Position numbers and translations under genes: made by a program. From Gimesia aquarii (GTDB lineage Bacteria; Planctomycetota; Planctomycetia; Planctomycetales; Planctomycetaceae), in the NCBI RefSeq assembly GCF_007748175.1, contig NZ_CP037422.1:2253231-2317230 (forward strand): DNA of 64,000 nucleotides, written 5' to 3'. The stretch's first letter is position 1. Every line of letters starts with the position of its first letter. Shown here piece by piece: positions 1 through 52,159 of the stretch. The notes under the pieces are model-generated. The model did not search any database and had not been told where the DNA came from. It was given only the letters and a program-made list of their open reading frames with translations.

Positions 1-732
1 GAGGCGGTATCTGTTAAAATGAAGTCTGAAGATTGATTTTCCATCAAATTTATTGCAGCGGTAATAGAATCCATTCAATCAAGCTGATGTTGCCAGTTTA
101 TACTCATCAATCAAATCTTTGTATGAGCGTAATATCGAACGAAGAAGACCGAAGTGGTCAAGTCGAAAGAAAATAGGAACTTGTCGTCAACAGCAAGTGA
201 GAGCGTGCTCATACAATCTGTTGTTTCACCGATGTCATCTGAGAGACAGCCGATACGAATCGATAACAGGAGGACTTATGAGCAGAGTCGGTTCAAATTG
301 CTTTCAAACCAGAGGGTTTCATAGTGAAAAAATCAAGTTGTGAAGAGACCTTCAGTATGTAAAACCATTCTCACGCGCGCGACGCAATTCGTGCAATTTA
401 GTCAATGACATCAGCGAGTCAAGATACAAATCATGCAGTACTGTTTAGGACTTTAACTCCATTTCAAAATTCCTGAAATTGTCAATTTGATTTTTCAGCT
501 AACCTGTTTTGAGGCTACTAGATATTGATTTAGTAAATTAGAAATAGTAGGCGTTTTACCATGCGTTTTGAGAAAATATGGGAACAGAAAGCAAACGATA
601 TTCTACACCTAGAATTCCTAACCGGACCAACCCTGACCAGTGTCAAGATAGTTAATCGTTTCCTAACTAAAATGGATCTAGTAACTGGATCAATCCTGAC
701 GACAGAAGTAGGGGCTCTACACATAAACTGGA
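1..732. other. Leading intergenic region, no protein gene
   Basis: No convincing gene is visible before the beta-helix protein. Short open frames on the plus strand (119-343 and 561-824) have no ribosome binding site or recognisable family, and the second overlaps the start of the next gene in another frame. The one structured signal is the promoter-like element at 317-423 reading leftwards. If it is active, its transcript would run off the window's left edge, so an RNA gene just outside cannot be excluded. Confidence 0.5.
317..423 (-). promoter_or_regulatory. Promoter-like element, copy A (GC-rich 13-mer box)
   Basis: Read on the minus strand from 423, this shows TTGACT, 16 bp, TAAATT, then a GC-rich stretch containing TGCGTCGCGCGCG (386-374). 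The same layout with the identical 13-mer is at 51530-51638 on the plus strand. Over the first 63 columns I count 41 identities without a gap. Similarity seems to continue to a shared TTCACTA-x-GAAA block about 40 bases further on. The -35/-10 spacing and GC-rich discriminator resemble stable-RNA promoters. What it transcribes is unknown. Confidence 0.45.
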
Positions 733-5063: not shown

Positions 5064-5263
5064 TTTCAGAAAATTGCTCAAAAAACAGGCAGTGTTACTC
5101 ATAGATTTAAGTGACTTCACCTGTTAATGAGGTGAGAGCTGAAATCATCTCTCTCTCACATCAGAGTTAAGAGATTCTTGATTTCGTAAGATCCAACTTA
5201 AAAGCAGGACTTTATTAACAAAGCATACGAATTTACAAAATCGTTTATTATTGTTTGCGCTAA

Positions 5264-5338
5264 TTGACAGAAGCCTCTGATCAACTATAGACTTAGGATT
5301 AATATTTTTGTATATTAATGAACCAATGTATTAATATA
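5264..5338 (+). promoter_or_regulatory. Promoter and triple ATTAATA operator, copy 1
   Basis: TTGACA at 5264-5269 and TATAGA at 5286-5291 are 16 bp apart. Three heptamers follow, ATTAATA, ATTAATG and ATTAATA, starting at 5298, 5314 and 5330, exactly 16 bp apart. The last two form a 9-bp inverted repeat (TATATTAAT and ATTAATATA, 10-bp spacer). A 27-bp stretch (5310-5336) is identical to 7735-7761 before the second DUF1559 gene. The repeats begin about where transcription should start, as expected for a repressor site. The regulator is unknown. Confidence 0.55.
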
Positions 5339-5522
5339 TAAAATATTATGTTGCCTTAAACATGTCATAAATGAATTCGCAGGATGACACAAGAGAATTC
5401 AACGTCTTTCGCTGTAATCAGCAATCGAATTGAGTTGATCGAAGCAGGTATATCATCATCCAGGATGAGAATTTTTATCTCTACTGTTCTTTTCTTATTC
5501 TTTCTTTTTCGAAGGGAAAAAC

Positions 5523-6494
5523 ATGAAACTGACTCATTCAAAGAAACGCGCTTTTACACTGATTGAGTTGCTGGTTGTGATCGCTATCATAGCCATTTTG
5601 ATCGCCTTACTGTTGCCAGCAGTGCAACAAGCAAGAGAAGCTGCCAGGAGATCAACTTGCAAAAACAACCTGAAGCAAATCGGCCTGGCACATCATAATT
5701 ATCATGATGTCTTTAAATGCTTCCCCCTCGGTGCACGCAGAGACCAATTAGGCGGCTGGGGACAATCCTGGTGGGTCGGCATTCTGCCATATATGGACCA
5801 GGCTCCGCTGTTCAACCAGCTCAATCATGAAGCCAATCACTCCGGCTACGTCGGAAATGGGCTGGTTGCGGATAAGGTAATCATTCCATTGATGCTCTGT
5901 CCATCCAGTCCAATGAAAGCGATTACTCATAATACGGGGGGAGGATCGACTGTCAGGCCACACTATGTAGGGATTTCGGGAGCCACAAACGGAAACGGCT
6001 TCACGAATGCATCAATCCATAATCAATACAATTATACGGGATGTTGCACCTCAGTCACCCCAGGGGGAATTAAAGCGCGTGGGGGCGTCATGCTCCAGAA
6101 CCTGTGCATCAAAATCAAAGATATCTCAGATGGAACAACTAATATCATCGTTGTGAGTGAGTGTTCAAACTATTTTCGAGACGCAGCTGACAATCCAGTT
6201 CAGGTTAACAGCAACCATGGTTGGATGATGGGTACAGCTGACGCTGGCGAAACAGGTCAAAACCGTACATTCAATCTCACAACTATTCGTTATCCACCTA
6301 ATACCGTAGATAACAGTTTACCGGGCACCGGAACAAACGATGGCCCCAACAATGGGATCTACTCTCCACATACGGGAGGAGTTCATGCTTTGCTGGGAGA
6401 TGGTTCAGTCCGGTTTCTCAGCGAAAATATAGATATGCAAACTTTACGGCGTTTAGCAACGCGCGATGATGGACAGCCACTCGGCGAATTCTGA
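5523..6494 (+). CDS. DUF1559 protein with pseudopilin N-terminus (pair 1)
   Basis: A 323-residue member of the planctomycete DUF1559 family. The N-terminus has a basic stretch followed by a type IV pilin-like prepilin motif ([15 protein letters not shown]), which a prepilin peptidase would cleave before Phe. A hydrophobic helix then leads to the conserved [22 protein letters not shown]-terminal [20 protein letters not shown] motif is the usual family ending. An AAGGGAAA ribosome binding site precedes the ATG. The leader is about 220 bases. The lipoprotein gene at 6613 follows after a hairpin. The molecular role of DUF1559 is not established; assembly with secretion pseudopilins is an inference. 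Confidence 0.88.
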
Positions 6495-6503
6495 TATCAA
6501 TCC

Positions 6504-6531
6504 TGTAGGCGGGCAATCCTGTCCGCCTACA
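6504..6531 (+). terminator. Hairpin between DUF1559 and lipoprotein genes, pair 1
   Basis: A perfect 9-bp stem, TGTAGGCGG with CCGCCTACA, and a 10-base loop, beginning 10 bases after the DUF1559 stop. Only a weak pyrimidine tract follows, so it could be a leaky terminator or an RNA-stabilising hairpin. Hairpins occupy the same place in both other DUF1559/lipoprotein pairs. Confidence 0.5.
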
Positions 6532-6612
6532 ATTCTCTTCGAGGCACAATGTCTCATCTGTTTAAATTTCTTTTTCAGACCTCTTTGAATCACATCGAAA
6601 ACAAGGGAAGAA

Positions 6613-51529: not shown

Positions 51530-51638
51530 CTTGACACAGAACTGCCCTCTCTTAAACTGCGCAATCTGCGTCGCGCGCGCGAAAGATGTTTTCCTCCAGT
51601 GAATCGATTACTCCCTCTACTTCTTATTCACTACGAAA
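51530..51638 (+). promoter_or_regulatory. Promoter-like element, copy B (GC-rich 13-mer box)
   Basis: TTGACA (51531-51536), 16 bp, TAAACT (51553-51558), then TGCGTCGCGCGCG (51567-51579), all at the same relative positions as in copy A at 317-423. Ungapped identity is 41 of 63 over 51530-51592, and a shared TTCACTA-x-GAAA block ends the similarity near 51638. The downstream stretch to 52159 holds no convincing protein, so it may drive an RNA. Confidence 0.45.
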
Positions 51639-52159
51639 AACGAGCCCTTTTTTATGATTTTACAAAAAATACCACTCTGGTAGTTCTCGATGTTTACGCT
51701 CATTTCACGCCTGTCAAACAAGTTCGCGACATGTTCATTCCGTTATCAAAACAGATCGCTTTACTATCAAAGCATTTCACGCTATCACCGCTTGACACTC
51801 TCACGCCGATCAACAAAATCATAAGTCTCAGGAGATGTGCTTATAGAGCACTCAAGATCTTAATTGAAATTGATATGTGTCTCTCTCAATCTGCAGAAAA
51901 ACACCTGTCACAAACCCAGGTGGAACTAAAATATGATCCCGCCCTGGTACTGCTAAAGGAAAGCCGCGCAATGTGAGACTCGTTTATTTTACCGGATGTT
52001 GTATAAAGCAGCGTAGCTGAATATTCAGCAGCAGTCTGCAAGTTTGATCAACGGTAAGCAACCATTGTGGGACAGGAGTTAAGCATTATAGAACGAACCA
52101 AAAACGTCAGGCTGGTAACATTAAATAGCACTCCATCCGATGCACATTTCAGCCAGTCT
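51639..52159. other. Intergenic region, possible RNA gene, no convincing protein
   Basis: An open frame from GTG at 51599 to 51976 codes for 125 residues with no glycine or tryptophan and no ribosome binding site, which argues against a real protein. CATTTCACGC occurs twice, 72 bp apart (51701 and 51773). CACCTG/CAGGTG (51902-51922) and GCTGAATATTCAGC (52016-52029) could form hairpins. The content fits a non-coding transcript from the element at 51530, but this is unproven. Confidence 0.3.

Follow-up and report, generated by a model that had tools for sequence, protein, structure and literature searches.

A window of 64,000 nucleotides of the Gimesia aquarii chromosome (the whole stretch of DNA analysed here) contains two promoter-like sites about 51 kb apart, and the question that they raise is what such a pair could serve for. 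The first-pass annotation offered two answers, a promoter family for unknown RNAs or a dispersed regulatory element. The observations on which it relied were confirmed: copy A (minus strand, from position 423) and copy B (plus strand, from 51530) both start with CTTGAC, followed after a 16-bp spacer by TAAA-x-T, and carry the identical 13-mer TGCGTCGCGCGCG 31 bp past CTTGAC; their ungapped identity is 41/63, and TTCACTA-x-GAAA is found in both (317-328, minus; 51627-51638, plus). On the other hand, the GC-rich stretch had been placed right behind the -10 and likened to the discriminators of stable-RNA promoters, and this analogy was not supported. The GC block begins 8 nt past the -10 hexamer, so that with a conventional start it would fall in the first transcribed bases and not in a discriminator. 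No tRNA or Rfam family was detected within the 64-kb window.

The two sites turned out to be a sample of a much larger set. In the 7.2 Mb genome that includes the window (G000) the 13-mer occurs 44 times, 22 on each strand, and the reversed pattern used as control is absent; 30 copies read together have the same surrounding blocks in common. A sequence-only profile built from 28 copies, with E < 1e-8 taken as a strong copy, recovered 53 strong copies and five half-elements without box 1. These half-elements (L164-L168) keep the downstream part and start near GCGCGAAAACCGTTTTTCTC. In the genus, 14 of the 17 genomes were positive by profile, 13 of them with 18-65 copies each. It should be noted that copies without the exact 13-mer mostly have in that position the palindrome CTCGCGCGCGAG or a sequence close to it, which indicates that the constrained core is TCGCGCGCG and not the 13-mer used in the search. 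The existence of a dispersed element family is thus virtually certain, and the original observation was correct but understated. We found no report of this family in our literature searches and no match of element DNA in the phage and plasmid collections; when a loose box pattern was compared with viral contigs, all hits among the matches listed were judged to be chance.

Each copy is an intergenic element of 0.5-0.9 kb with a constant order: a TTGACnCCnnCGCGCC box with a -10-like hexamer, the GC-rich TCGCGCGCG block, about 200 bp of common non-coding DNA, a second box and a common 3' end. Box 1 has the form TTGACnCCnnCGCGCC-N-GAAACT, with the -10-like variants TAAACT or, in G146, GATAAG, and lies 8-9 nt from the GC block; its spacer is also conserved (CGCGCC). 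Most copies present TTGAC-N16-GAAACT or TAAACT, which as predicted from the sequence agrees with a sigma-70-type layout of -35 and -10 hexamers separated by 15-19 bp, GAAACT and GATAAG being weak -10 matches. The box with at most one mismatch gives 20 matches in the whole genome, nearly all of them within elements. About 60 nt beyond the GC block there is a TCACTATAAAA block, and box 2 (TTGACCnCnnCACGCC...CATGAT) follows mostly 261-266 bp past box 1 in G000 and 269-273 bp in G146. Immediately before box 2 and about 200 bp past the 13-mer, a block of about 24 bp (L031-L074) presents two main forms, CTCAGACAAAACTGCGCAAAT and CGAGACATTAAGGCGCATAAG. The pairs L137/L031, L141/L065, L142/L054 and L152/L035 are orthologous copies of two species, with flanks that agree, and several have different forms of this block, which look as if a short cassette had been swapped between copies.

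The in-window part of copy A, delimited by comparison with other copies, occupies 1-490 on the minus strand, and its 3' end (GAACTGAAAAATGAGAAGT) lies about 25 bp beyond window position 1. A third TTGACA motif (P1, 480-485), followed by TTTCAGGAA, precedes box 1 (P2, CTTGACT-N16-TAAATT, 387-423); many G000 copies have this motif at about 60 bp before P2, and it is conserved in G153. Next come the GC block TGCGTCGCGCGCG (374-386), the TTCACTATGAAA block (317-328), followed by CCCTCTGGTTT, and, 261 bp from box 1, box 2 (P3, CTTGACCACTTCGGTCTTCTTCGTTCGAT, 126-162; row L052), all on the minus strand. Copy B, on the plus strand, presents box 1 (P2, CTTGACA-N16-TAAACT, 51530-51566), the GC block TGCGTCGCGCGCG (51567-51579), the TTCACTACGAAA block (51627-51638) and, also 261 bp from box 1, box 2 (P3, CTTGACACTCTCACGCCGATCAACAAAATC, 51791-51820). 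Its probable 3' end (TACCGGAT...AGCTGAATATTCAGCAGCAGT, 51988-52035), placed by comparison with other 3' ends, is weak here.

One possible reading of this layout is that the genome contains some 53 paralogous small-RNA genes, in which box 1 would drive an RNA from the GC block to near an AAAA...TTTT block and box 2 may drive a second one. Promoter-like hexamers with a 16-bp spacer are present in nearly all copies, AAAA/TTTT arms are found about 60-90 nt past the GC block, and the boxes are retained even in a copy without an ORF. However, the predicted RNAs did not fold better than shuffled sequences (z-scores 0.06-0.50), only one of 27 pairs in the alignment was compensatory, and the best local hairpin near the AAAA/TTTT block reached at least 5 pairs in only 42 of 79 copies; we did not find the conserved secondary structure with covariation that characterizes a structured non-coding RNA. 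Furthermore, the conserved unit is far longer than a promoter, it has two boxes, and full-length copies carry a gene that resembles that of the terminase small subunit (TerS). From the idea of a promoter family for unknown RNAs, the sigma-70-like boxes remain and the RNAs gained no support from folding or covariation; we consider small-RNA genes an unlikely explanation. As for coding capacity, minus-strand frames between the boxes are often open over long stretches, and a coding sequence there was rejected, since no codon periodicity was found in the G146 subfamily. A 125-aa ORF behind copy B was also discarded: its frame is broken in G038 and contains stop codons in G155, G136 and G119.

The position of the elements relative to genes is informative as well. 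Fifty-one of the 53 do not overlap any ORF of at least 200 aa, whereas random segments of the same flanking DNA overlap one in 80% of cases. The neighbouring genes are divergent around 14 copies, convergent around 14 and in tandem around 25, with no preferred orientation. It could be thought that the elements are ordinary promoters of the genes downstream, as promoter-like hexamers do lie upstream of some of them; nevertheless, a same-strand downstream gene exists for only 26 of the 53 copies, 14 copies lie between convergent genes, and the 290-bp core is separated from the next long ORF by a median of 555 bp, all of which makes this explanation extremely unlikely. Near-identical L026 and L027, at the same loci as L056 and L057, are located directly 3' of a tRNA-like sequence end (GGTCAGTGGTTCGAATCCAC).

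The copies are vertically inherited, many of them at orthologous loci. All 18 G038 copies tested against G000 were syntenic. Among the 31 copies of G146, which were compared against the 12.7% of the G000 genome around its elements, 8 occupy the exact orthologous site, 5 are displaced by 0.7-4 kb, and the remaining ones are further off or unmatched in the compared DNA. Both window copies are conserved in close relatives, a point that the first-pass annotation had left to be checked: copy A is found at the same locus in G038 (95% identical) and G153 (78%), and copy B in G038 (97%) and, strongly diverged but recognisable, in G155, G136 and G119. The comparison of copy B among G000, G155 and G136 gave 69% identity for box 1 plus the GC block and 71% for box 2, against 42% for the other 499 positions. 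At this one old locus, where the footprint was measured, both boxes are kept by selection. Since copies A and B both are without the TerS-like ORF, the conservation of box 2 in copy B shows that this box is not kept merely as a promoter of the ORF. With 53 copies, conservation in close relatives and a selection footprint over both copy-B boxes, the proposal of a dispersed regulatory element is strongly supported.

A dispersed set of short copies also brings to mind a non-autonomous, MITE-like mobile family with no host function, in which the TerS-like ORF would be the residue of a former mobiliser or a passenger. Copies are intergenic, in both orientations and mostly without an ORF, there are species-specific subfamilies, and copy turnover is seen between G000 and G146. 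Among these subfamilies, that of G146 (L178-L194) is homogeneous and presents GTTTACAGTGCACTGAAAC and TATGCCTGCGGGTCGCCGCAC blocks, which suggests recent amplification or concerted evolution. Against a mobile family stand the conservation of both boxes at an old locus amid a diverged background and the fixation of 18 of 18 tested copies between two species. In addition, terminal inverted repeats and target-site duplications were not evident by eye in the alignments and read-outs, and no clear empty site was found; the candidate for copy B, in G131 versus G146, was not clean; instead, a copy lies about 2 kb from there in G131. Finally, comparisons with Pfam and PHROGs gave no transposase match of convincing score for the ORF. 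Taking these facts together, we regard a MITE-like family as unlikely.

Another aspect to mention is the spacing of the elements, which was more even than that of random points, the null used here, in four of the five genomes analyzed; a candidate control repeat had too few copies. The coefficient of variation of the gaps was 0.66 in G000 (p 4e-4), 0.61 in G038 (p 2e-4), 0.59 in G146 (p 1e-4) and 0.59 in G131 (0/20000 simulations), while in G136 it was 0.81-0.83 and not significant (p 0.05-0.14). As G000/G038 and G146/G131 are related pairs, these results represent about two independent lineages. The effect remained when a hard-core distance of 20 kb was imposed (p 0.012 in G000; 0.001 in G146), and with 50 kb G000 no longer showed it (p 0.25) and G146 showed it weakly (p 0.027), so it is mainly a repulsion below about 50 kb. 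Target immunity, which would fit a MITE-like family, loss of close pairs or functional spacing could each be its cause. The last of these corresponds to sites for chromosome organisation or segregation, needed at a given density and bound by the TerS-like or another protein. The low gap variation in G000, G038, G146 and G131 and the fact that some G146 copies have moved by only 0.7-4 kb relative to the site in G000 speak for it. However, G136 was not significant, the lineages are about two, no strand bias of the copies was found along the chromosome, and copies are nearly absent by profile in some species; such a role seems to us very unlikely.

What distinguishes the family is the gene that a few copies carry. 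Four G000 copies (L059, L040, L071 and L047) run, about 300 bp past the GC block, into an ORF of 153-167 aa (167 aa in L059) with a probable helix-turn-helix, intact in all four. Relatives of this ORF, many of them intact, are present in 11 of the genus genomes searched, and dN/dS for close pairs is 0.02-0.25; the ORF is under purifying selection. A separate repeat with GGGCGACACATGGGTCGCCC adjoins several ORF-bearing copies, downstream of the ORF in L059, L040 and L071, and sequence related to it clusters at about 2.98 Mb (G000:C1:2980992-2982166). In G110, G141 and G126 the ORF is kept, yet the profile gave 0-1 matches, which means that gene and copy number are not strictly coupled unless the copies have diverged beyond the profile; variant elements lie upstream of some of the ORFs in these genomes.

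Beyond the genus, a search of 150 genomes of the family yielded only two distant relatives; each has a tyrosine integrase gene beside it, and one also lies near a DUF3987 gene. A further relative is encoded on a viral contig (L221, 4716-5177; 41% identity over 61 residues), directly upstream of a Terminase_6C large-subunit (TerL) gene (5134-6546), which is followed by Phage_portal_3 and Phage_Mu_F. The position directly upstream of terL is the usual place of terS. The alignment by hhalign of the element protein, with a profile that includes two distant planctomycete sequences, to the L221 ORF gave a probability of 99.2 and an E-value of 1.5e-19. From the location of this relative next to the TerL, portal and Mu-F genes, we infer that the element ORF very probably encodes a protein of the TerS type. 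By itself, the element protein has weak HTH/sigma-r4 matches in Pfam; no terminase model of Pfam or PHROGs matched it, although such a match is a customary rather than a defining trait in so diverse a family, a sequence search of solved structures gave nothing relevant, and no relatives were found in annotated phages. The protein does have hits in MAGs of Planctomycetaceae, in line with a planctomycete source. The viral relative from L221, modelled from its single sequence with AlphaFold, is predicted to be all-helical (pLDDT 73). Foldseek found no significant match to this model in the PDB and one match, unnamed, at E 3.6e-5 among viral models (BFVD), where most others were weak; about one third of the first 50 viral structure matches are annotated as terminase small subunit, mostly with weak E-values. 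No TerL of the Terminase_6C family was found in G000.

There is good support for the conclusion that the sites belong to a dispersed element with two boxes, that this element is linked to a gene of the TerS type and that selection acts on it at one old locus. To explain it, we propose that the two sites in the window are copies, without the ORF, of a single intergenic element that is dispersed and inherited vertically and that may descend from the packaging module of a phage or phage satellite. In such modules the DNA bound by TerS adjoins the terS gene. By analogy with terminases, which bind close to the genes that encode them, the few full-length copies would supply a TerS-like protein that still binds in trans the boxes or the GC block of every copy and probably also controls the promoter-like boxes, and the ORF-less copies would act as its chromosomal sites. 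That the boxes are binding sites of this protein is a tentative proposal, rather less than an even bet; that the elements as a whole are domesticated and phage-satellite-like, with boxes serving as such sites, comes close to an even chance without reaching it. A more far-reaching version, in which a domesticated small terminase would read evenly spaced packaging-derived sites in trans for chromosome organisation or packaging-based gene transfer, is quite unlikely. Dispersed repeats of bacteria are usually tied to transposases. In this family a single kind of gene is linked to the repeats, and its product resembles a packaging protein of phages; few copies have this gene, on which purifying selection is strong, and ORF-less copies keep two specific boxes, in copy B across a long divergence, with even spacing in four of the five genomes analyzed. 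If the protein does bind the boxes, the family would be a packaging module that has been domesticated and whose sites extend over the whole genome, a type of system of which we found no report in the literature searched. In any case, the family offers about 53 testable sites for promoter mapping in planctomycetes.

The elements can be compared with several known systems. They resemble stable-RNA (rRNA/tRNA) promoters in the TTGAC -35, the 16-bp spacer and a GC-rich stretch downstream, but differ from them in the position of that stretch and in the conserved spacer; no stable RNA was found downstream of the elements, and the box is nearly confined to the family. REP sequences and their RAYT genes offer another parallel: in both systems numerous dispersed non-coding copies go with a handful of linked genes that encode a DNA-binding protein, inheritance is vertical and there are species-specific subfamilies. 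However, RAYT belongs to the HUH/Y1 enzymes and REPs form short hairpins, whereas here the protein is a probable HTH protein of the TerS type and the unit measures 0.5-0.9 kb. The Correia repeat enclosed elements (PMC5039591), like other MITEs of bacteria, also have many short intergenic copies in both orientations, with internal promoter-like sequences and most copies without a gene. Unlike them, the elements described here are longer, showed neither terminal inverted repeats nor a target duplication clearly when inspected by eye, carry a TerS-like gene instead of a transposase in their full-length copies and occupy many orthologous loci across species. A last comparison is with phage satellites of the PICI type that encode their own TerS (PMC11389934, PMC10111431); the elements likewise present a TerS-type gene without TerL, the distant relatives of which lie by integrase genes and, in one case, also near DUF3987. 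PICIs are islands that combine genes for an integrase, replication and packaging hijack, and the elements are not; they have no integrase, replication or capsid gene and at most the TerS-like ORF. In further contrast with PICIs, they are present in about 53 copies per genome, with copies common to two close species.
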